A DNA stretch of 34,242 bases from Phycisphaerae bacterium. GTDB taxonomy: Bacteria > Planctomycetota > Phycisphaerae > Sedimentisphaerales > Anaerohalosphaeraceae. A program made the translations under genes and the position numbers. The number at the start of each line of letters is the position of its first letter. Within the stretch, counting starts at the first letter, position 1. The stretch is taken from contig JAGPMT010000030.1 of NCBI GenBank assembly GCA_018052735.1, positions 1-34,242 of the forward strand, written 5' to 3'. A model generated the notes under the pieces. That model ran no database searches and had not been told where the DNA came from. It worked only from the letters and a program-made list of their open reading frames with translations. Shown one piece after another: positions 9,376 to 30,468 of this stretch.

Positions 9376-9445
9376 GTATTCGTTTTAACTTTGCTAATTC
9401 GGGACGCTTGAGATGAAAACGAAAAAAACCTTTTCGGAGGGTGCT

Positions 9446-12400: not shown

Positions 12401-15400
12401 TGCCGCGTCATTGCTGAATTGAGCGGCGATTATTCCGGCGGCAACGGCGGCAACGGCGGCAACGGCGAGGGCGACGGCTCAGTTGGCGGCAACGGCGGTC
12501 ACGGCGGTCCGGCATACTTCATTCCGGATAAGATGCGTCTTATCGGCAATGTGAATGCAACCGGCGGCACCGGCGGCAACGGCGGTCCGCGCGGCCGCGG
12601 CGGCAACGGCGGCTATCGGAACGGCACCGGCGGTGCACCGGGAGGGATTAGCTATAATCGGTCCAATCCCAACACGGGAATCTTCCCTTCCAATATCTAT
12701 TATATGGCCTATTATTGGGAAGATACCACCAATGTGTTCAATTATCCGGATAGTCCTGAGGATTATACCGATTTTGGATTCCAGTGGGAATGGGAACCTG
12801 TACTTGTCAATACAGAAACTCTTGATTATTACGATCCAGCCAATCCGGATGTGTCTCTGGGAACCTATGACCGATTTGAGTACCAGACGGTTCTTATGAT
12901 AAACAGTCCCTTCTCGCCGTATTATGGTTTGGTCGCCAGCACAATGTTTGTTGAACCGACGCTAACGGTCGAGACAGATCCCAACACCAACGAACCTGTA
13001 TTGGTTGCCGATTATGATAATCCTGTTATTACGCCCGGCCAGACGGAGCTGATTAAAAGTCTGACCCCGACGAATTCTGAACAGCCCAATGCGGGGGCTT
13101 GTGCCGGAGCCAATTACTATGGCCAAAACAGCATTATCACAATGCGGGATACGACTGTATCCTTTAACTCCAGTTTCGCCAACCACGGCGGCGGCGAGCT
13201 GTATGATAAGGGCTGTCGTGCCACATTTGAAAATTGCATTTTTGAAGGAAATACAACGCTTTATGAGACCGCCGCTGAGGTCGATTATAAATTTGAAGGA
13301 TACGGCGGCGGCATTTTTGCAGACCAGCCGGTCAGCATGATTTTCAACGGCTGTCAGTTCAGCGCCAACAGCGGCTTTGCCGGCGGTGCCCTTTATTGCA
13401 ATTTCGGTCCGTCGGATGCCAACTATCTGCCGGAGCTTCAGATTACAGACACAACCTTCACCGCCAACAGAGCCGATTATCACTTTATATATTCCTACGG
13501 CGGAGCGGTCTATGCAGGCAATTCGCTGACTCCTTATGAAGAGTATTATTTCAATTATCTTAAAGACTATCGCTATACAAACGCCCCCGACTATGCCCTC
13601 TTTTTCAGGTCTGATCTGACAGCCACAGAGGATTTCACCAGTTTCATTGCATCGGTATATGCCCATTCACACGGGGAAGTGGAATTTACTCACCCGATAA
13701 CTACCCAGCTGTGGGATGATAGGGTGGAAGCCGATTACATTCTCAAACCGTGGGGTGAGCCGGACAAGAAGTATCCTGTTTATCCTGTTTCTGTTGAAGG
13801 CAGTATATTTGACAGAAATCTGTCTCCCTATGGTGCCGGCTTGTATCTGGATGCCTGCGATGCGGATGTTTCGGGATGTCATTTTGAGGCCAATACAGCT
13901 TGCGTTGGAGCCGGCGGTTTTGTGTTTGCCAGCGATATTACAGCCGGGAACAACACGTTCTTTTATAATACAGGCCGCGAAATTGAAAGTTTGGGTTACC
14001 AGAGTCAGGCCGATAACAGTACCGTTGAGATAACCGGCAAAGCCCCGGCGCTGTATCTTTCCAACAGCGATTCGTTTTTAATCAGCAACCGGTTTGTCGC
14101 CAATGAAAGCGGCGGCTTAGCGGGGGCGCTGTTTATCAATGGTTTGTCTCCGACGGGCTATCCGCAGTCGGTATTTAACTGCCTGTTTGTCGAAAACTCA
14201 TCGGGTTATGCCGGCGGTGCTCTGATTGCCGATGGCGGTACGGATGTTGAAGTGCTGAACTGCACGTTTGCTGAAAATCTGGTATCCGACCGCTACGGCT
14301 ACGGCGGCGGTATTGTCGCTCATGATGCCTATATGAGCATTACCAATACCATCCTCTGGGGCAATCTGGCGGCTTTGGGACCGCAGCTGTGCATTGGTGA
14401 TCCGGTGGAAGTGCTTCAGGAGTATGATCCGTTTTATGTCCCGGCAACGACGGTCTTTGTGGACTTCTCTGATCTCCAAGGCGGCCAGAACGATGTGTAT
14501 ATTGATTGGAACGGCTGGCCGTGGCTTGAATATGGAGATAACAACATTGAAGACAATCCCGCCACGCTGGAGGATGAATCAGATCCGCAGTTTATAGAAG
14601 TAACCGACCCCAATGATGCTACCGGCCGGACGTTTTATCTGGCAGAAATTGCCGCCGGTCAGCTGACTGACAGCCCGTGTTTAGATTCCGGAACGCCGAC
14701 CCACTTTATTTATGATCCAGCTGTCGGTGGATTTGTGACTGTGCCGGATACCGCCAGCTGGCTGCAGGAGAAGCTGGGCTACGAGATGACAACCCGAACC
14801 GACCACGCGGCTGATACGGGCATCATCAATATGGGCTATCATTATGATGCTTCCCTGCCGGTTCTGCAGTATTCGTTAACCACATCAGTCTTCATTTCGG
14901 ACCGTGAGCCGCACGGTACCATCCAGCAGGGCAGCAGCGAAAAGCATGTGGAGCCGCTGACTCTGACCTATCCGCAGGGCACAGTGGTTCTGCTGCAGGC
15001 ATTTGCTGAACCTGAAGATCTGTATCGGGTGGCGCGCTGGATCGGTTCGGATGATGACCGTTCCTTTGATTCGACCAATACCATTACCTTGACCGGCAAT
15101 CGAACCGTTCAGGTGGCGTTTGAATTGGCTGTGCCCAAATACCTGTATGTGCCGGAAAGCTACGATACGATTGAGGATGCTGTCACTGCGGCACGTTCGG
15201 GCGATACGATTGTTCTGACGCCGCGTCCCAGTCAGCCCTATTACATCAGCAATCCGGACGGGATTGATTTCGGCAGGGATAAATACGGCAGACCCAAAGA
15301 AATTGTGATTACTTCGGTGGATCCGAATGATCCGCTGGTGGTGGCGCAGACAATTATTGACTGCCGCGGAAGCCGGTATTCGTCCAAGCGGGCGTTCCGC

Positions 15401-18400
15401 TTCTCCAGCGGCCAAACGGCTCAAACACGCATCGAAGGCATTACCATTCGCAATGCCTTTACAGCGAGGATCGGCTTGAGTGCGGCGGTGCCTCTGGGAC
15501 GATGGCCTTGGTGGACCGGCGATGCCTCATGGTATGGCGGGCCGATTATACAGGAATGGGTCGAAGATCCGCCGAATCCAAGCCCGCTGCCGCCGATGCG
15601 TGCTTTGTCGGGAATGGACGCGACAGGCGACAGTTACGGCGGAGCGATTCTGTGCGAAAACGGCAGTTCACCGGTTATTCGAAACTGCGTCTTTGAAAAC
15701 TGCACCGTTGCCGGCGGTATCGGCGGCGACGGAGCCAACGGGAATTATCCGGCCAACATGCAGACGGATCAGGACCTTGACAGCCAGTCTGGCGGTCACT
15801 CCGGAAAGGGTACCGGCGATGGCTACGGCGGGGCGATCGCAGTGCGTAGCCAAAGCAGCCCGCAGATTGTCAATTGCACTTTCCGGAACAACCGCGCAAC
15901 CGGCGGCTGGGGCGGCATCCCGGGTAATGCCGGACTGTCCTATAACAATGGGCGGTACGGCTGGGGCGGGAATGATCCTGCCGGTCTGGAATATGCGGCG
16001 CAGTATTTCGGCTATAATCCTCAGGCCGGTTACGGTGAAGGTGACGGCCACGGCGGTGCTATCTACGTCGAAGCCGGCTGCAAGCCGCAAATCAAGGAAT
16101 GTATATTTGAGAACAATTACGCTCGTCCCGGTTATGTCAGTGCCGGCGGGCGTGAGGCTGCAGGCAACGATTATCCGCAGCCGTTTGACAGCCAGACGGT
16201 CGGAGCGCAAGGTCTGCCGTGGGGCAATGCCGGAGCCCGGGCTGGACGCAACGGCATTCTGCTGACCTATGATACTATTGCCGGCGGAGCAATCTATCTT
16301 GAAGACGAAGCCGATATATTGCTTGAAAATTGCATATTCAAGCAGAATCAGGCCTATGAAGTCTATACCTATAATGATGCTCCAGTGGCAACCCGCGGCG
16401 GTGCTGTTCACAGTGACCCGAATGTTGTCTTGACTGTTGTCGATAGCATGTTCCGTGAGAATCTGGCCGGCGCGCTGTATTGTTCGACCGGATCAACATT
16501 GACTGTTGATAAAGCTCAGTTTATCAACAATCTTACATATCTGGATGCCGCATCTCCGACGGCAACCTTTGATATTGCCGGCGGCATTACTGTTGCACAG
16601 GATGCCAATGCCGTATCGATGATTACCAATTGCCAGTTCCTTGGCAATACCTCGCATACTGGCGGTGCGGCTGTCCGGGCTGATGGTGATATGTACTTTG
16701 AAAACTGCATAATGAACGGCAACCAGTCACTGGTTGACGGCGGTGCAGTTTACAGCTTTGTGCTGCTGCCTTCGCCGGATACCCATACTACCAAACTGAC
16801 GTTTGTCAGCTGCGAGCTGAGCGGCAACACGGCTCAAGGATACGGCGGCGCTGTGTTTGCAAAGAACTGCATTCTTGAAGTCACTGACAGCTTCATCGTC
16901 CATAATACCGCCTACAGCGGCGGTGCTGTGCGCATTTCAGAAGGCGAACTGACGATGGGCGGCTGCCTGATTTACGCCAACGAAGCTACCGGTCTGAATG
17001 CAGGCTCCTACCGCACTGTTACGGCCGAAGGATACGGCGGCGGTGTGCATATTACCGATACGCCGTTCTCCATTGTGGATACGCGATTCCAGAACAACAA
17101 GGCTAACGGCATTATTTCTGCCGGCGGCGGTCTGTGCATTACCGGAAGCCAGACCTATTATAAGCAGAATCTGCTGAATTGCCTGTTTGCCGACAACCAG
17201 TCGGATAATATCGGCGGCGGCATAGCATGCCAGCTGTATGTAGATCTTCAGCTGGACAACTGCACGTTTGCCAACAACGTCAGCGGCGGGCAGACTGCCG
17301 ACTGGAGTCCTCGAATACCCTATGTAGCGGGCCAGTTTGTTATGGCAAGCGACGGGTATAAGTACAAGTCGAAGATCGGTACAGTAGCAAATCCCAATCT
17401 CGGCCATGATCCTGTTGAAGACACTGCAAAAGTGTACTGGGAAAGAGCCGAAGGCGGTGGAGCACTGCATATCGATCACCTGTCCCGTGCCGTACTGAAG
17501 AACTCGATAATCAGCGGCAACAAAGGCATCGCTGTGTACGAGAAATTGGGCGGCAATTCGAAGGTTTCTTATACCTTGTTCTACGCCAATGCAGGCGGCG
17601 ATATGCACAATGGCGCCGATGGTGTAGTGTATTCCGGCGTAGCTGCTCCGGAATATGCCAATAACAAGATTGGGGATCCGCTGTTTGCCGCAGGTCCGTT
17701 GGGAATGTATTATCTGGACCAGACAGCCAGCCCGGCTGTGAATGCAGGCAGCATTACGGCTGCCGCAGCAGGTCTGGATGTGTTCACGACCAGCCCGTCC
17801 GGCTCGCTGGATACCGGAATGGTAGATTTGGGATACCACTATCAGGATGCTGCCGGATTGGCATCCTACAGTCTGTCAACGTCATTCCGGGATGAAGCCG
17901 GTACGGCGGTCAATAACGCCGGCACGATCACAACGGTCATCAATGGCGGAACGGTTATTCCCGCTTCTGGAATGTTCAAGCGCGGTGCGATTCTTGAGCT
18001 GACAGCAAATGTTGACAGTGCTTATTATCTGACCGGATGGTCCGGCGGGACGATTAATGACAATACCACAGCGCCGAAAAATACTGTTCTGATGGCACGC
18101 AACAAGGATATTGCGGTTCTTGTTCGTCTGCGCCGCACACTTTATGTCGGTACATCGGCACAATACGATACCCTTGGCGATGCGATTTATGCTGCACAAG
18201 ACGGGGATACGATTCTGGTGGCTCCCGGCGAATATACCTCGCCGAGCCAATTACCGTCTATCGCCAACAGCATCTTCCTGACCGGCAAGAAGATTACAAT
18301 TGCCGGGTTCAATCCGGATGATGAAAATGTTGTGCGTGCTACGGTATTCAGAGATTACCGCTTTGAACTGGCAGATTTGGATAATCAGACGGTCATTGAC

Positions 18401-21400
18401 GGGATTACAATGAACCAGTGCTGGATGTATATGGAGAATTCAGATCCCATTATCCGCAACTGCGTGTTCAGTGAATGCCAGTTTGCCAATTCTACAGAAG
18501 TGCATTCTGGAACAGTGCCGGCAGGTACAGATGGCTATCACCAGCCGCCGATTTATGGCGGTGCTATTGCGATGTTTAACAGCTCGCCGAAGATTATCAA
18601 CTGCACCTTTGAGAATAATTCCGTCCGAGGCGCGAATGGTGAAAACGGCTTTGCCGGCGGCCCGACGCATCCTACCGGCGGTGACGGCGGCTGGCCGGGT
18701 GCTGCCTATGGCGGTGCTGTCTATTGTGTCTTCAGCAGCAAGCCCGAGTTTATCCGCTGTACCTTTACCGGCAATGAGGTCTTCGGCGGCAACGGCGGCA
18801 ATGGAGCCAACGGCTGGGTGAACGCTGGAAATACCTATGACGGCGGACGCGGCGGCGGCTGGCTGTATGATCCCGAAATGGAAGAATATCTCCGCCTCAA
18901 TGCCTTTGATACATGGGACGGCTGGGCCAATAACAGCTATGGCGACAAATACAGTGCTTGGTCCATCTATGCCAACTATTACGGCGTTTATGATATTGAC
19001 GTTTGGGCCCGCTGGTTCGGCTGGGGTGACAATTACACCAGCTGGGAAGATTTTATGGCGGATTACAATGCCAACCCGTACGATCCTCTGGGTGATCCGT
19101 ATGACCAGTTGCTGGATGTTTGGCGCTACAGCGGATTCGGCGGTGCGGTTTACTGCGAATTTGACAGCGATGCACGGTTTGAAGAATGCATCTTTGAAAA
19201 CAACCAGTCGCATGGCGGCCTGACGGGAGTGGGCGGAGTCATCGCCGACCAAACCTCACGGCCAGACCGTCAGCTTAATATACCGACGGCAGGCGGGGCG
19301 GTTTACGCCGCTCATGACAGCGATTTGACGTTTGACCGCTGTGTCTTCCGGAACAATCTGGCCGATAAATCGATGGTCCAGCTGCCGCATACATACCAGG
19401 TCAGCTTCGGTGGTGCGGTGGCCTATGAATTTAACTGCACCGTAACCTTTGATGACTGCGATTTCCAGGACAATGATGCGACAGTCGGCGGCGGTATGTA
19501 CGGCCGTGACTCGTTTGCAACCATAGCAGACTGCAATATCTTAAGCAATCAGGCCTATATCGGAGCTGGTATCTACCTCCAGATGGAAGAAGCAGACATT
19601 ACCAACACGGTATTCCGTGCCAACCGCGCCTGGAATTCCGATGTCTCCGGTACGATTGATTTGGCCGGCTGCGGGGCAGGATTGTTTGCCAATGTTCTCA
19701 ACCTGAATATCCGCGACAGCGTCTTTGTGCAAAACGCAGCGGATATTTCCGGCGGCGGTTTGATGGTGACAGGCGTGTCTGATGAACCCACGGATATATT
19801 CAACTGCCTGTTTGTTCATAACACAGCCGGCCGTGACGGCGCGGGTGCCTCTGTGAACTGGCATTCCAATGCACGGTTCGGCAGCTGCACGTTTGCCGAC
19901 AACAGTGTCCTCGGGCTGGCTGACTTTACGGCCAGCGGCGGCGGCCTGTACATCGGCTACAACAGCACTGCCCAAGTCATTGACAGCATCTTCTGGGGCA
20001 ATACGGCTACACAGGGCGAAAGCATCTCGGTAGCCACCGGTTTTGCCTCCGAACCGCGTCCGTCAACACTGGCGGTTTCGTACACCGATGTTATGAATTA
20101 TCCCAGCGCCAATGCAATTTATGTGGCTTCCGGCTGCACCCTTGATACAGGTGCCGGCATCTTCAGCGGGCTTCCGATGTTTGAAGCGCCTCTTGAGGCC
20201 GACGACATAGCTCAGCAGTATTATCTGAACCAGACGGCAAGCCAATGCAAGGACAAGGGAAGCCAGACATCGGTGCAGGCGGGATTGGATAGTTACACGA
20301 CCAGCATCACCGGGGCACGCGACAAAGGCCTGCTGGATTTGGGTTATCACTACCTTGTGTCGCCGAGAGTCCAGTGCAGCATCATTGATGAAGCGCTGTG
20401 GCTGAGCGGACGGATTGATTTAGGTGATTTGCTAGCCTTTGCGGATCGGTGGCTCAACGCCGGTCTTGTATGTGCCGAGAGCAACAACTGGTGCGGCGGA
20501 GCCGACCTGAATTATGATGGGGATGTCAATCTGGATGATATGTCCAACATCTCGGTCTGCTGGCTTGTGGAAGATACAGAGCCCCCGTTCCCGAATCCGG
20601 CACAGTGGGCGATGGAACCCAATGCGATCCCCGATACATACGGTACGATTGAAATGCTGGCGGCTGTTCATCATGATGCTTGGTGGCCGGATTCGTATCT
20701 GGAGTACTATTTCGATTGCATCCAGCCGCCTGACGGACCGGATAGGGGCTGGTCAACCAATCCGTACTTCAAGGTTTCCGGATTGAAGCCCGGCGGCTAT
20801 AAGTATGTCCTGCGGGTGCGTGATGGAAGCGGGAATATGACAGCCGATTCCGTTGAGGCCGATGTAATCCCCGGCCAAAAGACTACACTGCCGCAGGCCC
20901 AGTGGCTCAATCCGCCGTTTGTGATGAATGCCCAGTTTGCCATTCAGATGGAAGCGCTGGCTTACGAGAACTTCGGAACAATCGGCATTCCGGTTCCATC
21001 GCTGCCCAGCGGCTATGTTATCAAGTACCAGTATGAATACCGCGGTACGGCCCCCGGCGGCGACAGCCGCGCCTATATGGCAGATCGGATTTATATCGAT
21101 ACCGGCATGGTTGCAGGCCAAACCTACACGTATCGTGTACGGATGGGATTGTTCTATGAGCCCGGCGATGGGACTTCCACTAAGATTGCCGATGGTCCGT
21201 GGTCAGAAGAGGCTTCTGTTGTGGCCATCGCCCCTGATCTTGAGCCGCCGCAGCCCAATCCGGCTCAGCATGCCAGCGGTTCGCCGTTCCAGATTTATGT
21301 GGCTTCGCAGGGTGTGTATTATCATGTGGTCACGGCGGTTGCGGCGACAGATCCCAGCGACGTGGAATACAAGTTTGTCTGCAGCGATTCGAGTGCCAGC

Positions 21401-21628
21401 AGCGGCTCGTCCAATGATCCAGACGGCATCGAGTGGCGAAATGCAGACAATGTAGCCGGCCTGTTCTATCCGAACGGAACTGCACAAGTGCCCAACCAAT
21501 ACTGGTCACGCATTGGATTGGTTAACCAGACCGACAAAGTGTGGTATGTAATAACACGCGACCGGTCGCCTAACCGGAATACAGGCCAGACGTCGGTCGG
21601 CAGAACCATCGCTTCGCCGGAACCATAA
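9446..21628 (+). CDS. Giant secreted subtilisin-like protease with three beta-helix units and dockerin-like motif
   Basis: About 4060 residues. ATG 9446 is preferred over the in-frame ATG 9413 because GGAGGG (9436-9441) precedes it and a signal peptide (about 1-21, ending CYGA) follows directly. Order: fervidolysin-type propeptide (about 23-105); S8 peptidase (about 120-430) with Asp153 (VIDSGVD), His209 (HGTH) and Ser370 (GTSMA); Fn3-like modules 432-531 and 532-645; three beta-helix units (646-1800, 1902-2799, 2901-3636), each opening with a YxTIxDA...GDT motif and closing with LGYHY or MGYHY; InlB-B-like spacers between units (about 1806-1895, 2806-2895); dockerin-like EF-hand (3656-3707); three Fn3-like modules (3713-4060). 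GGN-repeat tracts are inserted in units 1 and 3. No C-terminal membrane anchor is seen, so the protein is probably exported and held by non-covalent contacts. All triad residues are intact, so proteolysis is expected. The substrate is unknown; polysaccharide binding by the helices is an inference. Confidence 0.9.
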   Translation: MKRYSILGLVLSSILLSFCYGAEYREGYLLVKFTDTGTTAASNAARQAVVNAAGGGTIQRMYTLVPGLGLVKLPAGVDVLTAKAAFSASAGVQYAEPDYIQKVQAVPNDPDFARLWGMHNTGQTGGTKDADIDAPEAWDLAKGSSSIVVAVIDSGVDYTHPDLADNMWINLAEQNGQVGVDDDNNGYIDDVYGYDFANMDGDPMDDHGHGTHCAGTIGARGNNNVGVAGVNWQVKIMALKFLTAGGGGSTADAISAVQYAVRMGAKLTNNSWGGYGFSQALYDAIEAAGKSGQLFVAAAGNESNNNDGDTPAYPGSYDLDNIVSVLATDDTDTMASFSNWGKTTVDLAAPGVAIYSTAPGGRYQNMSGTSMACPHVAGAAALIWSIKPDLTYSEVKQVLMLSVDIKNTLEGMCVTGGRLNLYNAVLLVQGGDNLPPLPDPAQWLIKPTATGLSTIVMQAVTAKDKSGVEYRFDCIEDDAYDSGWQSSSLYMRSDYPQGATYSFRVQARDKSANRNQTQWSETLQTTTATGVDDLPPAPNPTIWLAYPRVTRPSLNEIGMEVVASYDENGVEYYFDCVFASDGNQDNYDSGWQTSPVYTVRVSQVAGHEYTFAAYVRQKDTTDPVYITEAAAPMTAGRAASSIVREVPSAAYRTIQDAINAANNGDTVLVHEGVYREININFKGKAITVCSENPDNPAIVAATVIDCADPQNLWALERRRAFLFQNMEGRNSVLAGFTIKNAIAIDNPETRFGGSRSGVSDRDLPSPNDGRDAMGGAIVMGSPLAPASPTIRNCVFTDCFAYGQYGEHGVNGPNGGVNQDGQNGDRGGNGGNAYGGAIYAYSGSAPLIKGCQFINCQAVGGEGGNGGNGGDGGGHSDNVEEADGHHGGHGGDAGLGGCAWGGAMYFESDCSPELYDVTVRDCFVRVGEAGRGGNGGNGSDAKGQGDGGNGGNGGIGGDLRAPDSCGGAVYYGKNTKATIVGCRFENCRVIAELSGDYSGGNGGNGGNGEGDGSVGGNGGHGGPAYFIPDKMRLIGNVNATGGTGGNGGPRGRGGNGGYRNGTGGAPGGISYNRSNPNTGIFPSNIYYMAYYWEDTTNVFNYPDSPEDYTDFGFQWEWEPVLVNTETLDYYDPANPDVSLGTYDRFEYQTVLMINSPFSPYYGLVASTMFVEPTLTVETDPNTNEPVLVADYDNPVITPGQTELIKSLTPTNSEQPNAGACAGANYYGQNSIITMRDTTVSFNSSFANHGGGELYDKGCRATFENCIFEGNTTLYETAAEVDYKFEGYGGGIFADQPVSMIFNGCQFSANSGFAGGALYCNFGPSDANYLPELQITDTTFTANRADYHFIYSYGGAVYAGNSLTPYEEYYFNYLKDYRYTNAPDYALFFRSDLTATEDFTSFIASVYAHSHGEVEFTHPITTQLWDDRVEADYILKPWGEPDKKYPVYPVSVEGSIFDRNLSPYGAGLYLDACDADVSGCHFEANTACVGAGGFVFASDITAGNNTFFYNTGREIESLGYQSQADNSTVEITGKAPALYLSNSDSFLISNRFVANESGGLAGALFINGLSPTGYPQSVFNCLFVENSSGYAGGALIADGGTDVEVLNCTFAENLVSDRYGYGGGIVAHDAYMSITNTILWGNLAALGPQLCIGDPVEVLQEYDPFYVPATTVFVDFSDLQGGQNDVYIDWNGWPWLEYGDNNIEDNPATLEDESDPQFIEVTDPNDATGRTFYLAEIAAGQLTDSPCLDSGTPTHFIYDPAVGGFVTVPDTASWLQEKLGYEMTTRTDHAADTGIINMGYHYDASLPVLQYSLTTSVFISDREPHGTIQQGSSEKHVEPLTLTYPQGTVVLLQAFAEPEDLYRVARWIGSDDDRSFDSTNTITLTGNRTVQVAFELAVPKYLYVPESYDTIEDAVTAARSGDTIVLTPRPSQPYYISNPDGIDFGRDKYGRPKEIVITSVDPNDPLVVAQTIIDCRGSRYSSKRAFRFSSGQTAQTRIEGITIRNAFTARIGLSAAVPLGRWPWWTGDASWYGGPIIQEWVEDPPNPSPLPPMRALSGMDATGDSYGGAILCENGSSPVIRNCVFENCTVAGGIGGDGANGNYPANMQTDQDLDSQSGGHSGKGTGDGYGGAIAVRSQSSPQIVNCTFRNNRATGGWGGIPGNAGLSYNNGRYGWGGNDPAGLEYAAQYFGYNPQAGYGEGDGHGGAIYVEAGCKPQIKECIFENNYARPGYVSAGGREAAGNDYPQPFDSQTVGAQGLPWGNAGARAGRNGILLTYDTIAGGAIYLEDEADILLENCIFKQNQAYEVYTYNDAPVATRGGAVHSDPNVVLTVVDSMFRENLAGALYCSTGSTLTVDKAQFINNLTYLDAASPTATFDIAGGITVAQDANAVSMITNCQFLGNTSHTGGAAVRADGDMYFENCIMNGNQSLVDGGAVYSFVLLPSPDTHTTKLTFVSCELSGNTAQGYGGAVFAKNCILEVTDSFIVHNTAYSGGAVRISEGELTMGGCLIYANEATGLNAGSYRTVTAEGYGGGVHITDTPFSIVDTRFQNNKANGIISAGGGLCITGSQTYYKQNLLNCLFADNQSDNIGGGIACQLYVDLQLDNCTFANNVSGGQTADWSPRIPYVAGQFVMASDGYKYKSKIGTVANPNLGHDPVEDTAKVYWERAEGGGALHIDHLSRAVLKNSIISGNKGIAVYEKLGGNSKVSYTLFYANAGGDMHNGADGVVYSGVAAPEYANNKIGDPLFAAGPLGMYYLDQTASPAVNAGSITAAAAGLDVFTTSPSGSLDTGMVDLGYHYQDAAGLASYSLSTSFRDEAGTAVNNAGTITTVINGGTVIPASGMFKRGAILELTANVDSAYYLTGWSGGTINDNTTAPKNTVLMARNKDIAVLVRLRRTLYVGTSAQYDTLGDAIYAAQDGDTILVAPGEYTSPSQLPSIANSIFLTGKKITIAGFNPDDENVVRATVFRDYRFELADLDNQTVIDGITMNQCWMYMENSDPIIRNCVFSECQFANSTEVHSGTVPAGTDGYHQPPIYGGAIAMFNSSPKIINCTFENNSVRGANGENGFAGGPTHPTGGDGGWPGAAYGGAVYCVFSSKPEFIRCTFTGNEVFGGNGGNGANGWVNAGNTYDGGRGGGWLYDPEMEEYLRLNAFDTWDGWANNSYGDKYSAWSIYANYYGVYDIDVWARWFGWGDNYTSWEDFMADYNANPYDPLGDPYDQLLDVWRYSGFGGAVYCEFDSDARFEECIFENNQSHGGLTGVGGVIADQTSRPDRQLNIPTAGGAVYAAHDSDLTFDRCVFRNNLADKSMVQLPHTYQVSFGGAVAYEFNCTVTFDDCDFQDNDATVGGGMYGRDSFATIADCNILSNQAYIGAGIYLQMEEADITNTVFRANRAWNSDVSGTIDLAGCGAGLFANVLNLNIRDSVFVQNAADISGGGLMVTGVSDEPTDIFNCLFVHNTAGRDGAGASVNWHSNARFGSCTFADNSVLGLADFTASGGGLYIGYNSTAQVIDSIFWGNTATQGESISVATGFASEPRPSTLAVSYTDVMNYPSANAIYVASGCTLDTGAGIFSGLPMFEAPLEADDIAQQYYLNQTASQCKDKGSQTSVQAGLDSYTTSITGARDKGLLDLGYHYLVSPRVQCSIIDEALWLSGRIDLGDLLAFADRWLNAGLVCAESNNWCGGADLNYDGDVNLDDMSNISVCWLVEDTEPPFPNPAQWAMEPNAIPDTYGTIEMLAAVHHDAWWPDSYLEYYFDCIQPPDGPDRGWSTNPYFKVSGLKPGGYKYVLRVRDGSGNMTADSVEADVIPGQKTTLPQAQWLNPPFVMNAQFAIQMEALAYENFGTIGIPVPSLPSGYVIKYQYEYRGTAPGGDSRAYMADRIYIDTGMVAGQTYTYRVRMGLFYEPGDGTSTKIADGPWSEEASVVAIAPDLEPPQPNPAQHASGSPFQIYVASQGVYYHVVTAVAATDPSDVEYKFVCSDSSASSGSSNDPDGIEWRNADNVAGLFYPNGTAQVPNQYWSRIGLVNQTDKVWYVITRDRSPNRNTGQTSVGRTIASPEP
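11381..14845 (+). repeat. Beta-helix unit 1 of giant protein
   Basis: Starts YRTIQDAINAANNGDTVLV and ends MGYHY (residues 646-1800). It contains repeated rungs of the form GGAI(Y)...I.NC.F..N, as in pectate-lyase-like parallel helices. It is the longest of the three units because five GGN tracts are inserted (11877-12644). Confidence 0.75.
11877..12644 (+). repeat. GGN-type tandem repeat tracts (polyglycine-like) in beta-helix unit 1
   Basis: Five tracts (about 11881-11950, 12026-12063, 12232-12315, 12436-12510, 12561-12644) are built from GGCGGCAAC-type 9-mers, giving GGNGGNGG with D, H or T variants. Each lies in a loop between helix rungs. They resemble the PGRS tracts of mycobacterial proteins, for which polyglycine-II helices have been proposed. 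Confidence 0.85.
15149..17842 (+). repeat. Beta-helix unit 2 of giant protein
   Basis: Starts VPESYDTIEDAVTAARSGDT and ends LGYHY (residues 1902-2799). Same rung pattern as unit 1, with far fewer glycine inserts. Confidence 0.75.
18146..20353 (+). repeat. Beta-helix unit 3 of giant protein
   Basis: Starts QYDTLGDAIYAAQDGDTILV and ends LGYHY (residues 2901-3636). It holds one short GGN tract (18785-18856) and an Asp/Trp/Tyr-rich insert of about 75 residues just after it. Confidence 0.75.
18785..18856 (+). repeat. Short GGN-type tract in beta-helix unit 3
   Basis: FGGNGGNGANG followed by DGGRGGGW, at the equivalent place in unit 3 (after the second rung). It is shorter and more degenerate than those in unit 1. 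Confidence 0.6.
20411..20566 (+). other. Dockerin-like EF-hand motif within giant protein
   Basis: Residues 3656-3707. The pattern is IDLGDLLAFADRWL, a Cys-containing spacer, then ADLNYDGDVNLDDMSNI ending CWL. The second half has a full EF-hand calcium loop (DLNYDGDVNLDD); the first half has lost most acidic ligands. This resembles the single dockerin-like element common near the C-terminus of planctomycete exoproteins. Confidence 0.65.
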
Positions 21629-21691: not shown

Positions 21692-21849
21692 ATCTGCTCC
21701 GGCAGTTGCAAATCTTGCCCACAAAAGGGCTTGACAGGGCAGGGAAAAACCGGTAAAAAAACCGAACATATTTGCTTGAATTGACGTAGCAAAAAATTAT
21801 TTTTGGGTAAATTTTGGCAGGTTCAGGCCGTATCAAGCAGGAGAAGACT

Positions 21850-22572
21850 ATGATACAAGTACAGCATTTGCGACGGTGTTTCGGACCGGTGGTGGCGGTA
21901 GATGATATTTCTTTTACCGCCAAGCAGGGGGATGTGCTGGGCTTTTTAGGCCCAAACGGGGCCGGCAAGAGTACAGCCATGAAAATGCTGGCCTGCTTTC
22001 TGGCACCTGACGGGGGAACGGCCAGCATTTGCGGGCGGGATATCCTGACAGATCCTGTGGGTGTGCGGCAGGTGATAGGGTATTTGGCGGAAAATGCCCC
22101 GGCCTATAACGAAATGACCGTTGCGGGTTTTCTGAATTTTGTATGCGATGCCCGGCGGATCAAAGGACGTGCCCGTCGGGAAGCGCTGGATCGGATTCTA
22201 TCGATGTGTTCGATAGAGTCAGTTTACCATCAAACCATTGAAACCCTTTCCAAGGGCTACCGCCGGCGAGTCGGTCTGGCACAGGCACTTATTCACGACC
22301 CCAAAGTCCTGATTCTGGATGAGCCGACCGATGGACTGGACCCCAATCAGAAATACGAAGTCCGCCAATTGATTAATCAGATGGCTAAGGAAAAGTGCAT
22401 TATTGTCTCGACCCATATCCTTGAAGAATTTGAACAGGTCTGTAACCGCACGATTATTATCGCCCGCGGGAGGATTTTAGTGGATTCGACGCCGCAGAAA
22501 CTGGTTCAGGAATACGGCTGTTCGCTGGATGAGGTATTCCGCAGAATCACAAAGACCAAAAAGTCTGCCTGA
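21850..22572 (+). CDS. ABC transporter ATPase, GldA type
   Basis: ATP-hydrolysing subunit of an ABC-2-type system; works with the permease and GldG-like proteins encoded next. 240 residues with Walker A GPNGAGKST (about 34-42), signature LSKGYRRR (about 134-141), Walker B VLILDEPTDGLDP (about 156-168) and switch His in STHI (about 189-192). ATG 21850 is chosen over an in-frame TTG at 21814 because AGGAGA lies a few nt upstream and the family normally begins at this point. It is the first gene of a four-gene operon; the next start is 33 nt after the stop. In Bacteroidetes homologues assist gliding or polysaccharide export. The substrate here is unknown. Confidence 0.9.
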   Translation: MIQVQHLRRCFGPVVAVDDISFTAKQGDVLGFLGPNGAGKSTAMKMLACFLAPDGGTASICGRDILTDPVGVRQVIGYLAENAPAYNEMTVAGFLNFVCDARRIKGRARREALDRILSMCSIESVYHQTIETLSKGYRRRVGLAQALIHDPKVLILDEPTDGLDPNQKYEVRQLINQMAKEKCIIVSTHILEEFEQVCNRTIIIARGRILVDSTPQKLVQEYGCSLDEVFRRITKTKKSA

Positions 22573-22605
22573 TAATTGTGTATAACCGCTGTTGGGAGAT
22601 TCAAT

Positions 22606-23337
22606 ATGCAGAGTTTTTTAGCTGTTCTAAAACGGGAATTGAAAGGTTATTTTGCCACACCGGTGGCTTATGTGTTTCTGGTGATTTTTCTTTTTTTCGC
22701 CGGGTATCTGCCGTTCCGAGACGGCTTTTTTGAAATCCGGCAGGCGGATTTGCGGCTGTTTTTTACAAATCTGCCGCTGCTGTTTGTTTTTATGGTGCCA
22801 TCAACAGCAATGCGTCTGTGGGCCGAAGAGCGGAAAACCGGCTCCATTGAGCTGCTGCTGACCCTGCCGATTACCGTGCCGCAGGCCGTTTTGGGGAAAT
22901 TTATGGCGGCTTGGATATTTCTGGGGATAGCGCTGCTGCTGACTCTGCCGCTTCCGGCAGTAGTGGTCTATTTGGGCGATCCTGATATGGGGCAGATTAT
23001 TACCGGCTATCTGGGGGCATTGCTGATGGCCGGGGCTTTTTTGGCTATCGGCTCCTTCTTCTCCGCGTTAACCAAAAATCAGGTGATAAGTTTTATTCTG
23101 TCGGTAGTTGCCTGTGCGATTCTTGTGTTTGCAGGCAATCCAACAACCTTGGATTATCTTTCGTCTAATGTGTCTTCGGCTGTCGTGGGGATTGTGGAAA
23201 CGATGAGCTTTCAGACGCATCTGGATTCTATGATGCGGGGAGTCGTGGAACTCAAGGATGCCGCTTACTTTATTATCCTGATTGCGGCTTGGGTATATGC
23301 CTGTACATTGATTTTGGAAGAAAGGAAGGCACGCTGA
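22606..23337 (+). CDS. ABC-2 type permease, GldF type
   Basis: Membrane subunit partnering the ATPase encoded upstream. 243 residues with six predicted transmembrane helices, the first within residues about 18-38, and the charged stretch RLWAEERKTGSIELLLTLPI (about 67-86), typical of ABC-2 permeases of the Gld/Nos/CcmB-like group. ATG 22606 has GGGAGA (22594-22599) upstream; the in-frame ATG 22576 has no such signal. Its TGA overlaps the ATG of the next gene (TGATG), indicating translational coupling. The permease lacks a fused ATPase or periplasmic domain; the periplasmic part is supplied by the GldG-like protein. Confidence 0.9.
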   Translation: MQSFLAVLKRELKGYFATPVAYVFLVIFLFFAGYLPFRDGFFEIRQADLRLFFTNLPLLFVFMVPSTAMRLWAEERKTGSIELLLTLPITVPQAVLGKFMAAWIFLGIALLLTLPLPAVVVYLGDPDMGQIITGYLGALLMAGAFLAIGSFFSALTKNQVISFILSVVACAILVFAGNPTTLDYLSSNVSSAVVGIVETMSFQTHLDSMMRGVVELKDAAYFIILIAAWVYACTLILEERKAR

Positions 23338-25322
23338 TGAACAGGATGATGCGTACAGTTCTGGGAATCTTCTTTGCTGCAGTCATTGCCGTTTCTGCGA
23401 TATGGATTATCCAAAATCTCGGCAGACAGCTTCGTTTGGATATTACGGAACGCAAGCTTTATACCCTTTCGCAGGGAACCAAAGAGATTCTGGCAGATTT
23501 GAAACAGCCGATATCCATGAAGCTTTTCTATACGAAAACTGCGGCCATGAAGGCGCCGGACCAGATACGCTTTTACAACAATTATTTTACCTATGTAAAA
23601 GCATTATTGGAAGAGTATCAGGCCCAGTCGAATGGCAAGATTAAGCTGGATGTAATTGATCCGCGTCCCTACAGCGATGAGGAGCTGGCGGCCATTCGAT
23701 ACGGCTTGCGCCGGTTTAATATCACGGAAGATGAGAGTTTTTTCTTCGGACTGGTTGTACAGACCCAGTTCGGCGTAACCAAAATTATCGACTTCTTTTC
23801 CCCGGATCGGCAGGAATTTGTGGAATATGACATCAGTTATCTGATTGATACGGCAGTTACCCGCCAGAAAAAACGGCTGGGTGTTCTCAGTTCTCTGCCG
23901 GTGATGGGGGATTCTGAGTATATGATTCGGATGATGCAGATGCAGGGCCAGCAGGGCCGGCGAAAGTGGGGCATCATCAGTCATCTGGAAAAGCAGTTTG
24001 AGGTTACATCAATTCCGGCCGATGCCGGGGAAATCACCGATGTTGATTTGCTCTTGGTGATACATCCGAAGGATCTGTCTGAAAAGACACAATTTGCCAT
24101 TGACCAGTTTGTTCTCAAGGGGGGACGGGCGATTATCTGTGTTGACCCGCATTCCATTGCAGATGCTCCGGATATGCAGCAGCAATTTGCAGGCGGACAC
24201 CGGTCTGCTTCTGGTCTGCCGCGGCTGCTGAAGGCCTGGGGATTGGAAATGCCGGAAATGAAATTTGCCGGCGACCGTGTACTGGCTGTTACGGGTTCTC
24301 CCAATCCGGCTCAGCGGCCTGAAAAAATACTCAGCATTATGCGATTGAGCGCCTCGGAAAAATGCTTTAACCGGGATCATCCCATCAGTGCCCAGCTCAA
24401 TGAGGTAACGGTCGTGTTCCCCGGTGTCCTTAATGTTCTGGAAGCCGATGCAGAAGAGCCGAAGCTGGAGCATATTCCGCTGCTGATGACCTCGGCACGC
24501 GGCAATGTGTGGTCGGTGAGCAGTCCCTATGAATTGATGAGTCCCGATTACCGCAAATTTATGCAGGATTTCAGGGATGGTGACAAACCGGTGGTTATCG
24601 GGTATTTTGTATCCGGCAATTTCAAGAGCGCATTTCCTGACGGAATTGAAGTTGCCGAGGAAAACACGGACGAATCCGGCAAAGAAGAACAGTCCGGCCA
24701 AGAAGAATCCGATAAGCCCAAAATGAAGAAAATCACCGGCTTGACCCAAGCCGAACAGCCCTGTGCTGTTGTTGTGTTAGCGGATGTAGATCTGCTGTGC
24801 GATATGGTGGCCTATCAGAGGACATTTTTCGGTCTGGCCGCGATGGGTGACAACAGTTCGCTGATTTTGAATACCCTTGAAAATCTTTGCGGCTCCAGCC
24901 GTCTGATTTCAATTCGTTCCCGCGGCAACTACAAACGTCCCTTTGTAGTGGTTGACCAGATCGAGGCCAAGGCCGATGCTGAAACGGCTGAAGAAGAAGC
25001 GGCTATTACCGCCCAGATTAAGGGTTTTGAACAGCAGTTGAATGAGAAACTGCGTTCTCTCGAAGGCGAAAACAAGGGCGAGTTAATTAACCAGACGATT
25101 TTAAAGGAAAAGCAGCAGATTGAGCTGAAGCTTCACGAGGCTGAAAAGCGCCTTCGTGAAGTCAAAATGCGCAAGCGCGAGCAAATTGAGAAACTCAAAG
25201 AGCGGATGCGCTTCTACTGCACAATTCCGGGCCCGATTTTAACCCTTGTTATTGCGGTTGTGCTGGGAATTTCCCGCGCTGTGAAGCGCCGCCGCTATAT
25301 CAGTCATGCCAGTGATGCCTGA
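23337..25322 (+). CDS. GldG-like ABC accessory protein
   Basis: 661 residues. An N-terminal membrane helix (about 8-24) precedes a large extracytoplasmic region that resembles the GldG/ABC-type uncharacterised transport domain: DITERKLYTLSQGTKEILADL (about 34-54), RLGVLSSLPVMGD, and LLVIHPKDLSEKTQFAIDQFV with GGRAIICVDPHS. Residues about 548-626 form a long charged coiled coil (EKQQIELKLHEAEKRLREVK), followed by a C-terminal helix (about 631-647). ATG 23337 overlaps the permease stop by one base, and GGAAGG (23324-23329) lies 7 nt upstream. It probably holds or guides the substrate, or couples the transporter to the envelope. Two membrane helices imply a looped topology. Function is inferred from Bacteroidetes homologues only. 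Confidence 0.85.
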   Translation: MNRMMRTVLGIFFAAVIAVSAIWIIQNLGRQLRLDITERKLYTLSQGTKEILADLKQPISMKLFYTKTAAMKAPDQIRFYNNYFTYVKALLEEYQAQSNGKIKLDVIDPRPYSDEELAAIRYGLRRFNITEDESFFFGLVVQTQFGVTKIIDFFSPDRQEFVEYDISYLIDTAVTRQKKRLGVLSSLPVMGDSEYMIRMMQMQGQQGRRKWGIISHLEKQFEVTSIPADAGEITDVDLLLVIHPKDLSEKTQFAIDQFVLKGGRAIICVDPHSIADAPDMQQQFAGGHRSASGLPRLLKAWGLEMPEMKFAGDRVLAVTGSPNPAQRPEKILSIMRLSASEKCFNRDHPISAQLNEVTVVFPGVLNVLEADAEEPKLEHIPLLMTSARGNVWSVSSPYELMSPDYRKFMQDFRDGDKPVVIGYFVSGNFKSAFPDGIEVAEENTDESGKEEQSGQEESDKPKMKKITGLTQAEQPCAVVVLADVDLLCDMVAYQRTFFGLAAMGDNSSLILNTLENLCGSSRLISIRSRGNYKRPFVVVDQIEAKADAETAEEEAAITAQIKGFEQQLNEKLRSLEGENKGELINQTILKEKQQIELKLHEAEKRLREVKMRKREQIEKLKERMRFYCTIPGPILTLVIAVVLGISRAVKRRRYISHASDA

Positions 25323-25347
25323 ACCTATGGAATAACAGGAGATACCG

Positions 25348-26481
25348 ATGAGCGACAGAAAACTTGCCATTTTGGGAATTGCCGCATTGATAATGCTTGG
25401 CGGGGCGATTCTGCAGAGCCATATGGGGCGGAAGGTCAATACAGCGGTCTTCAGCAGTTCGCCGCTTGTGGAAGGGCTGCCCATTGAGGCGGTCTCGGCT
25501 GTTACAATTACCAGTGAAAAGGGCACTCAAACCGTACGTCTGCAGAAGCAGAATAATGTCTTTGTTGTGGCAGCCAAGGACAATTATCCGGCCGATGTCA
25601 GCAAAATAAATACACTGATCAGCCATTGTCTGGATATCCGCACGCGTGAAAAAATTACCTCGGATCCTGCCAATCATGCAGATTTGAAAGTTACTCCTGA
25701 GACGGCACGGTATGTAATTGCCTTTCAGGATAAGGACGGCAAAGACATTGTGGGCTTGGCCGTTTCGGAAAGTGATGAAAACGGCAATTCTTTTGCCCGT
25801 CTGCTAAACTCCGATGATGTCTACACGGTCTCTGATGTTCCTTGGATTGACACCTCTGTGATGGGATATATCAATACAAAGCTGCTGGAAGTACAGCAGG
25901 ACAAAGTCAGCAGCGTGGCAGTGCGTACGCCCGAGGATACGTATGTTCTGGCAGCTGCAGAAGAGGGCGGCGAAATTCGTCTGGAAAATATGCCGCAAGG
26001 CAAACAGTATAAAGGGACGACTTATAAAACAGTGTTCAATGCTCTCAGTTACCTGCGATTTGATGATGTAATGGCGGCAGAAAAAGCTCCGGCTGATCTT
26101 GACTTCAATAGCGTTTATACCTGCAAGCTGAAAGATCTGACTGTCTATAAAGTGCAGCTGGCCAAACAAGGCGATAAAACCTACGCGAAGGTGTCAGCCG
26201 ATTATCTGGATAAGACGGAAGTAACCAAGACTGTGGGTCAGGTCGAATCCGAAGAAGAACTGAAAAAGAAAGAGGCCAAACTGCTGGCAATTGATGCTGT
26301 CAATGCGTTTAACCAAAAGCATCAGGGGTGGATTTATGTGATTCCTTCTTACAAGTCCGGCGATTTGAGCAAGCCGCTGGCGGAATTGATAGAGGATATT
26401 CCGACCAAACCGCAGGCGGCCGAATCAGATGCAGCCGAAAAAGCTGCTGACATGCCTGCCGATCCGAATGCGGCTGCATAA
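25348..26481 (+). CDS. DUF4340-like protein, last gene of Gld-type operon
   Basis: 377 residues: one N-terminal membrane helix (about 6-23) followed by a beta-rich extracytoplasmic domain with the features of DUF4340 proteins, including the early VSAVTITSEKGTQTVRLQK segment (about 49-67), repeated WxxxxxxxYPAD-like strands and SDVPWID. The C-terminus is low-complexity (AAESDAAEKAADMPADPNAAA), probably unstructured. AGGAG (25337-25341) lies 6 nt before ATG 25348; the gap to the preceding gene is 25 nt, so it is co-transcribed. The pairing of GldG-like and DUF4340 genes is common in bacterial Gld-type clusters. The molecular role is unknown. Confidence 0.8.
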   Translation: MSDRKLAILGIAALIMLGGAILQSHMGRKVNTAVFSSSPLVEGLPIEAVSAVTITSEKGTQTVRLQKQNNVFVVAAKDNYPADVSKINTLISHCLDIRTREKITSDPANHADLKVTPETARYVIAFQDKDGKDIVGLAVSESDENGNSFARLLNSDDVYTVSDVPWIDTSVMGYINTKLLEVQQDKVSSVAVRTPEDTYVLAAAEEGGEIRLENMPQGKQYKGTTYKTVFNALSYLRFDDVMAAEKAPADLDFNSVYTCKLKDLTVYKVQLAKQGDKTYAKVSADYLDKTEVTKTVGQVESEEELKKKEAKLLAIDAVNAFNQKHQGWIYVIPSYKSGDLSKPLAELIEDIPTKPQAAESDAAEKAADMPADPNAAA

Positions 26482-28920: not shown

Positions 28921-30468
28921 CTATTGTCTCAGATAAGCCAACCGGTCCGGCAGAGGAATATTATTGCCGACAATATCTTCACCATACCCATTTTCCGCCA
29001 GAAGCTGAATGTCCTGAAGGACGCGCTTGTCGCCGATGAATACAGCTCGGATATCTGTGCCGATATCAATTTTTCCCATCATCTGCAATTTTGCGATTTC
29101 ATCAATAACCTGCTCCAGCAGTTTGGTATCGGGTGAATAAGGCTTGTCTTCAATTTTCAGGGGCTGTTCATAGAGAATGATTTTTCCGCGTTCTGCCAGC
29201 GTCATAATAATATCCCGCACGATGGTTTTAAGGCTTTTATCGCCCGGGACAGAAGGAACCAAATCGAGGCAGATAATTTCCTGTGCCAGTGAACGCCGTT
29301 TATGGGCATTGATTTTTTCATTGGCGCGGAACAGCTCCAGCGGAGAGCTGGCGTCGTAAGAGTCATCTCCCAGCTTCATTTTTACGTCGCTGCCGTAATG
29401 AAGCACCAATTTGGAGACCAGTGTGGAGGGCCGAACGTGAAAGCCGCGATATTGGGGGACGGGTACTTCAATATGTCCGATTTCTGTATAGCGTTTAAGC
29501 ATGTCCTGACAAAGCAGCTCAGCACAGTTCAGATATAACGAAACAAAATTGATGCAGTAATTGATAAGAACATCCAGCAGCTTTTCGGGTTCAACAAGGC
29601 GCTTGCTGACTTTGACAATGGGATGGGCAACCGGACTGGCATGCCGTTCATAATAATGTGCCAAATCGCGGGCGGTTCTCAGCAGATGCAGGACTACGCT
29701 GATATGCCCACGCAGAACAGGCAGGTCATTATCAAAAACCTCTGTTTCTGTAGTTGAAACATAGGTGTCGTAGAGGGATTGCAGATTATGAAACCGCAGT
29801 TCAAGCGAACGCAGTTTTTCTTCGCTGACAGGGCCGGTTAGCTCGCATAAATATGCCTGCGGTTTGGTAAGCCGCCCCGGCAGGGCATTTCGGCTTTCGG
29901 CCGCCAGATTCAGAAATGCTGTTGCCAGCATGGAGACGGTCTGAGAAACGGCCTCGATTTTTCGCATGGCTAAATCATGCGGAAGGCGGCCCGGCGGCAG
30001 TGTTTCGCTGTAGGACGTTTCGGGGATAGACAGATTTTCGGTCGGCAGATGCAGTTGCCCGGCGACTTCCAGAAGACGTTTGGCCGCTTCGATTAAGATT
30101 TCTTCGCAGATATACAGGGTCTCTTCTGTGTATTTTGCGAAATCCTGCTTGACCGGCAGCAGGCGGTAGGCCGGAATCGAATGCTGGATATGCAGCAGCT
30201 CATAGCTGACGTTGGAAAACAGCTTGATGGCAGCTGTCAGCGAGCGAAACTTTGCCCAGCGGCAGTTATTTCGTGCTCCATAGGAATCCAGCAGTTCCTC
30301 TATTTGTGAGGCCTGAGACAGCAATTCCCCCAGCAGGGGGCGGGTTAAAAACTTTTTATCTCCGGCATGCTTGGTTACATACTCAACTGCCGTAAAATAC
30401 CGTTTAATTCGACCAGATATTAAAGCTTTGAAGTCTTCATACGATATTGTTACAGGAACCATAAGCAT
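28921..30468 (-). CDS. Helical protein with embedded HPr-like domain, function unknown
   Basis: 515 residues, no signal peptide or transmembrane helix. Residues about 1-325 are mostly helical with many amphipathic segments and no recognised family. Residues about 332-420 resemble the PTS phosphocarrier HPr: PVPQYRGFHVRPSTLVSKLV (336-355) matches the GLHARPA helix entry with the phosphorylatable His at position 344, followed by YGSDVKMKLGDDSYDASSPLELFRA, matching the HPr strand-turn-strand with Ser at 374-375 near the regulatory Ser position. Residues about 420-515 form a further alpha/beta part. No EI or EII genes are visible. ATG 30468 or 30462 could start; neither has a clear ribosome binding site. 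A role as phosphocarrier or regulator is inferred from the HPr-like motif only. Confidence 0.6.
   Translation of the reverse strand: MLMVPVTISYEDFKALISGRIKRYFTAVEYVTKHAGDKKFLTRPLLGELLSQASQIEELLDSYGARNNCRWAKFRSLTAAIKLFSNVSYELLHIQHSIPAYRLLPVKQDFAKYTEETLYICEEILIEAAKRLLEVAGQLHLPTENLSIPETSYSETLPPGRLPHDLAMRKIEAVSQTVSMLATAFLNLAAESRNALPGRLTKPQAYLCELTGPVSEEKLRSLELRFHNLQSLYDTYVSTTETEVFDNDLPVLRGHISVVLHLLRTARDLAHYYERHASPVAHPIVKVSKRLVEPEKLLDVLINYCINFVSLYLNCAELLCQDMLKRYTEIGHIEVPVPQYRGFHVRPSTLVSKLVLHYGSDVKMKLGDDSYDASSPLELFRANEKINAHKRRSLAQEIICLDLVPSVPGDKSLKTIVRDIIMTLAERGKIILYEQPLKIEDKPYSPDTKLLEQVIDEIAKLQMMGKIDIGTDIRAVFIGDKRVLQDIQLLAENGYGEDIVGNNIPLPDRLAYLRQ

Follow-up and report, generated by a model that had tools for sequence, protein, structure and literature searches.

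An HPr-fold domain split by an insertion and fused to a helical module in a protein family of Planctomycetota

The gene at positions 28921-30468 of the stretch of DNA analysed here encodes a 515-residue protein in which a known domain, HPr, occurs in an apparently undescribed architecture and with an interrupted fold. The stretch (the window, 34,242 nucleotides) is one contig of a Phycisphaerae bacterium genome of 2.88 Mb in 70 contigs. A helical-HPr fusion architecture was not found described in the open-access literature searched under the name Planctomycetes. We consider it reasonably likely that the protein represents a two-module family of Planctomycetota, in which an HPr-fold receiver would be phosphorylated by Enzyme I (EI) or HPr and its state read by a helical module. 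The features of the gene are given below.

28921..30468, minus strand: gene of the helical-HPr fusion protein, 515 aa, ATG start (ORF call and family matches)
29485..30468, minus strand: N-terminal module, residues 1-328, predicted all-helical and read as two bundles (AlphaFold)
29296..29481, minus strand: first part of the HPr domain, residues 330-391, elements b1, a1, b2, b3 and a2 (profile, model and alignment)
29437..29439, minus strand: codon of His344, the equivalent of HPr His15 (sequence and conservation)
29344..29346, minus strand: codon of Ser375, the equivalent of HPr Ser46, not strictly conserved in the long type (alignment)
29047..29295, minus strand: insertion within the HPr domain between a2 and b4, residues 392-474 (alignment)
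28972..29046, minus strand: second part of the HPr domain, residues 475-499, elements b4 and a3 (model and alignment)
28924..28971, minus strand: conserved C-terminal tail, residues 500-515, of the type GNNxPLPxxLxYLR (alignment)

The 515-residue open reading frame on the minus strand, taken from the initial annotation, is real: it is confirmed by translation, and all matches listed in 32 of 59 related genomes are free of stop codons, some of them being partial, cut by contig ends or split. Two types of the protein are distinguished below, a long type, to which the window protein belongs, and a short type without the insertion. The profile TIGR01003 (PTS_HPr) matches the window protein over residues 334-379 at E 2e-4 (21.2 bits, cut-off 47.9), and PF00381 matches it at E 0.019 (15.5 bits, cut-off 23); both scores lie under the curated cut-offs. 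The Pfam HPr cut-off is passed by all seven short-type proteins tested and, in a genome search, by the long-type proteins of G044 and G017, and is failed by the long-type proteins L103 (22.2) and L030 (no match).

The AlphaFold model of the whole protein (mean pLDDT 88.1) contains all elements of the HPr fold within residues 330-499. As read from the model, these are b1 (330-336), a1 (345-358), b2 (362-366), b3 (369-372) and a2 (from 376), followed after the insertion by b4 (474-480) and a3 (481-492). VIA-align superposed residues 330-499 on the complete HPr 3lfg_B with Z 11.6 (83 of 89 residues, 1.6 A), with 20 further HPr rows at Z of at least 9.3. Foldseek alone gave no PDB match for the whole model at E 0.001 or better; its HPr rows had E 1.2-1.5 and probability 0.93-0.99. 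A search of PDB sequences with the family profile ranked HPr chains first, but only at E of at least 0.1. When the insertion columns were omitted, hhalign aligned the long family with the classical HPr of the clade at 93% over 86 columns with a score of 42.1, while ten column shuffles reached at most 14.6 and the insertion by itself gave 0.1%. The window sequence spliced without the insertion aligned with the HPr of its own genome over 86 residues (22.7% identity, 30.4 bits).

Judged from the profiles and the predicted structure, the domain is a real relative of HPr, beyond what chance would give. The initial annotation had described an HPr-like domain embedded in a large helical protein and had proposed structure prediction as a check; the profile matches and the HPr-like model of residues 330-499 bear this out. 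The extent that it gave, residues 332-420, was wrong. The domain consists of residues 330-391 and 475-499; the earlier range takes in the first of these segments and about 29 residues of the insertion, but stops short of the domain's end.

The segment PVPQYRGFHVRPS corresponds to residues 336-348 of the protein and contains His344. In HPr, the active-site His and Arg serve phosphotransfer from EI. All 63 long-type and all 15 short-type rows have His344, Arg346 and Pro347, which agrees with the earlier description of a conserved His of the phospho-acceptor type in an HPr-like helix; a His344 that varies among homologues, named there as a refuting outcome, was not seen. The block R341-P347 (RGFHVRP) is identical in every row of the 63-row alignment of long-type proteins, the window protein included; positions 342 and 343 differ between the two subfamilies. 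As to the regulatory Ser, near which Ser374/375 had been placed, Ser375 does occupy the position of Ser46, but it is not strictly kept: Ser stands there in 46 of 63 long-type rows (15 of 15 in the short type). In the region of helix 2 the long type has F380, N383, E384, N387, K390 and R391 in all 63 rows, and the classical HPr of the clade differs from the long type in this region.

The insertion was examined in a chosen subset of 52 rows, made up of the window protein, 36 other long-type and 15 short-type proteins. It measures 82-85 residues in all 37 long-type rows and is absent (0 residues) from all 15 short-type rows. An uninterrupted HPr domain of about 85 residues is thus absent in the long type, where the domain is split after helix 2. 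The 15 short-form proteins, found in other lineages of the phylum than that of the window, match the family model up to about residue 378 and resume from about residue 472 after 8-13 residues; these relatives without the insertion confirm the split of the domain independently. A tree built from the helical module alone has one branch, with support 100/100, that separates all 37 long rows from all 15 short rows, so that a single insertion or a single loss suffices. An insertion of nearly fixed length at the partner-binding side of HPr is unusual.

Carriers of the gene are 32 of the 59 relatives, the window's own genome included. In the class sample 60 of 397 genomes carry it, and a 61st match (G284) covers the HPr segment only. 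A search of 392 genomes of the phylum gave 99 matches, 15 of them of the long type like that of the window; 19, by our count, covered the HPr segment only and were excluded as carriers, and of the about 65 other matches not of the long type, 15 were aligned. Relatives lie on nine named contigs, eight of which belong to MAGs labelled Planctomycetota, Planctomycetales, Phycisphaerae or Sedimentisphaerales. The ninth is labelled Candidatus Competibacteraceae; its protein (L039) is a long-type member with 52% identity that falls among planctomycete rows in the tree, and the contig is probably misbinned. A second, diverged copy of the family occurs in two genomes, as L106 in G018 and on contig C523 of G027, and L106 has no Ser at the Ser46 position. 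Because they repeat the window or contigs present under other identifiers, L001 and L031-L038 (L038 is partial) were left out of row set A1, as were second or split pieces; the set includes a truncated L018. Row set A2 omits the duplicates L093 and L102.

Modelled alone, the helical module was predicted with a pLDDT of 91.6. It matched no Pfam family, and a search of PDB sequences with it gave one match, a designed bundle at E 0.85. The best VIA row was likewise a designed helical protein (Z 11.8, below the value of about 13 that the tool sets for helical bundles), and Foldseek and VIA gave no convincing fold match. Searches of viral structures and PHROGs returned no useful match. Seven positions, L162, Q230, Y233, D234, T235, R253 and H261, are invariant across the 52 rows of both subfamilies, a pattern of conservation that suggests a shared polar face.

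In the mechanism that we propose, the helical module (residues 1-328) would act through its fusion to the predicted C-terminal HPr-fold receiver. The cell's Enzyme I would phosphorylate His344, directly or via classical HPr, and the phosphorylation state would alter the packing of the receiver on the conserved polar face of the helical module, or the exposure of that face. Such a change would in turn alter the binding of a putative partner. In the window's subfamily the insertion of 82-85 residues would extend the face at which classical HPr binds its partners, and the Ser46 position appears relaxed. Given the postulated phosphorylation of the receiver and readout by the helical module, together with an insertion at the partner side and a relaxed Ser46 position, the window protein is probably a dedicated output protein of a regulatory PTS and not a general sugar phosphocarrier.

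Helices 1 and 2 of classical HPr contact its partners, and EI contacts helix 2. Because helix 2 of the window protein differs (P376, F380, R381, N383, E384), EI may not recognise the receiver. In the main rival explanation the domain takes no phosphate and is a docking or structural module, its RGFHVRP block being retained because it is needed in folding or in contacts with the helical module. This explanation fits a helix 2 that is rebuilt and continues into the insertion, a Ser46 position that is relaxed, and a block R341-P347 whose invariance in the long type seems to go beyond the needs of phosphotransfer. The same block, however, keeps its His and Arg in both subfamilies while the neighbouring positions 342 and 343 differ, and we regard such a loss of phosphotransfer as rather unlikely. 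That the helical part is a polyphosphate-binding, CHAD-like module fused to HPr was considered as well, since CHAD structures are the first two Foldseek matches for the module (E 0.21 and 0.40) and one, 6qva, is the first for the whole model (E 0.26). None of these values is significant, the VIA score against CHAD (Z 8.6) lies in a range that the tool calls common for helical bundles, no CHAD profile of Pfam matches the window protein, and hhalign of the module with four CHAD proteins of related genomes gave a probability of 0.3%. A CHAD identity was not adopted, with Foldseek at E 0.21-0.26 and hhalign at that value, and is judged very unlikely.

The initial annotation had also named an HPr-kinase-like protein in the window and raised a non-classical phosphorelay between the two. 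The protein meant, encoded at 5931-7700 on the plus strand, has 589 residues, a P-loop-like stretch GDTAAGKS and a weak match to the PEP carboxykinase profile (16.4 bits, cut-off 369). These traits, the location on the same contig and the fact that all four relatives with a near-full-length homologue (of 59, the own genome included) carry the HPr protein speak for a relay with this protein as kinase. Yet PF07475 (Hpr_kinase_C) does not match it at E 1 or better, other HprK profiles are likewise unmatched, and a search of PDB sequences gave no match at E 1, so that its description as kinase-like was not confirmed. Its homologue is missing from 28 of 32 carriers, and a relay with this protein is therefore not supported; G008 has only a 56-residue match. 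In addition, the two genes lie about 21 kb apart and Ser375 is not conserved. Encoded by an accessory gene that few relatives have, the 5931-7700 protein was assigned to no family, and its role as a kinase for the window's HPr domain is scarcely credible. PF07475 was over its cut-off in none of the 59 relatives, with one match under the cut-off (G052), and had no match at E 0.001 in the own genome. The absence of HprK is not certain, because this search matched 3 of 14 controls and missed that from Bacillus subtilis, which has an HprK. An HPr-kinase link was rejected on the combined counts for PF07475 and the 5931-7700 protein and on the empty PDB sequence search.

PTS genes are present in the same genome. 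On contig C18, a ribosome-hibernation-type gene (PF02482), EIIA, HPr and EI follow in a row, and the genome search for a PTS EI suggested by the initial annotation thus found one beside classical HPr and EIIA, on a contig other than the window. HPr and EI were each found in 57 of the 59 relatives, all 32 carriers included. Among the genomes of the class EI is present in 381 of 397, that is in 59 of 60 carriers (the exception, G232, is 76% complete) and 322 of 337 non-carriers. Since EI is almost universal in the class, its presence says little and co-occurrence cannot discriminate. Within the 515-residue chain no other PTS domain (EIIA, EI) was found, PF00381 being the only one in Pfam at E 1 or better.

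Other genes of the window were also noted. The plus-strand gene at 9413-21628 encodes a 4071-residue protein with a subtilase domain and prodomain near the N-terminus, right-handed beta-helix stretches and an InlB B-repeat-like domain. At 21814-26481 (plus strand) lie ABC transporter genes similar to those of gliding-motility GldA, GldF and GldG, all under the equivalog cut-offs, followed by a gene for a DUF4340 protein.

No conserved gene partner was seen at 49 loci of the window's subfamily. A gene of the Exo_endo_phos family (PF03372 in the window) stands upstream in 14 of the 49, and the neighbours are otherwise lineage-specific. Open reading frames were chosen greedily here, and at 6 of 49 loci this dropped the gene itself (its own cluster holds 43 of 49); long-type neighbours may therefore have been missed. 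The short subfamily has a different surrounding. In 17 of 20 genomes a sigma-factor gene (PF04539) lies divergently, no more than 5 kb upstream, with 0.55-4.0 kb between the matched stretches; each of the 20 genomes has 3-7 PF04539 matches. G510, with a sigma motif 161 bp upstream of the short-type gene, is an 18th genome. The divergent gene is thus found in 18 of 18 genomes with enough sequence; in G524 and G504 the contig ends are too near. Row set A6 is without L174, which was read in the wrong frame, and L169, which lacks PF04539 coordinates. In the block of this subfamily (L159-L178), a ParB-like gene was seen downstream, by motif in 10 of 20 and by blast cluster in 16 of 20, and a metallophosphoesterase-like gene is convergent in 9 of 20. 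Clusters of neighbours included many antisense reading frames in these high-GC loci, and the mixed clusters 0 and 1 were not used.

As a hypothesis, the sigma neighbour of the short subfamily offers a lead towards sigma control, one that the lineage of the window does not share. In the corresponding rival reading the protein would regulate an alternative sigma factor and would itself be controlled by the PTS, with a logic similar to that of E. coli HPr and Rsd but in one fused chain. This reading draws on the 18 sigma-linked genomes, which span 8 families and compare with about 0.05 expected under random gene placement, and on three tested divergent sigma proteins, which scored best with RpoS, below the RpoS cut-off. 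The lineages share ancestry, however, and the block also contains ParB-, pyrF- and hemW-like genes (these names, like that of the metallophosphoesterase-like gene, are presumptive and go back to motifs). A sigma motif is near only 2 of 49 long-type loci, and in the order of the window an RpoS-like sigma factor (at least 280 bits, a limit set by us) occurs as often without the gene (24 of 27 non-carriers) as with it (26 of 32 carriers); a sigma link in that order was rejected on these counts. A precedent exists in the binding of HPr to the anti-sigma factor Rsd (PDB 4xwj; PMC8509676). Among the structure matches listed for the helical module in general searches there is no Rsd row. We regard sigma regulation by the family as unlikely. 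An extension of it is just as doubtful: a phylum-wide switch from PTS to transcription, in which a helical sigma regulator with a built-in HPr receiver would let PEP/EI status set an RpoS-like sigma factor, the window's lineage having a receiver insertion and a gene no longer beside the sigma gene.

The preferred reading, an HPr-fold receiver read by a helical module, can be set beside known systems. With HPr (PF00381, TIGR01003) the protein shares the predicted fold, the active-site His and Arg and the HxRP motif. It differs from HPr in that the domain is embedded in 515 residues, is split by 82-85 residues, has a rebuilt helix 2 and scores under the curated cut-offs. Crh and NPr are paralogues of HPr with regulatory roles, and Crh, rows of which are among the HPr matches of VIA-align, lacks the His. 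They likewise employ the HPr fold for regulation rather than sugar uptake, but are small single-domain proteins, unlike the 515-residue fusion. An HPr domain within a longer chain is also found in the multidomain phosphoryl transfer proteins FPr/FruB and DhaM. Those described carry EIIA and/or EI domains (PMC2405797), whereas the window protein has no other PTS domain that was found. The E. coli Rsd-HPr complex (PDB 4xwj) similarly places HPr beside a helical protein and has a sigma link, as in the short subfamily; it is formed by two separate proteins, and the helical module has no detected resemblance to Rsd in the general structure and profile searches.

For the genomes of Planctomycetes known in 2008, PMC2405797 reports that EI belongs to the regulatory group and that PTS transporters are absent, which raises the question of what the planctomycete PTS does. 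The conserved protein described here, which joins an HPr receiver of its own to a helical module, is a direct candidate for the missing PTS output.
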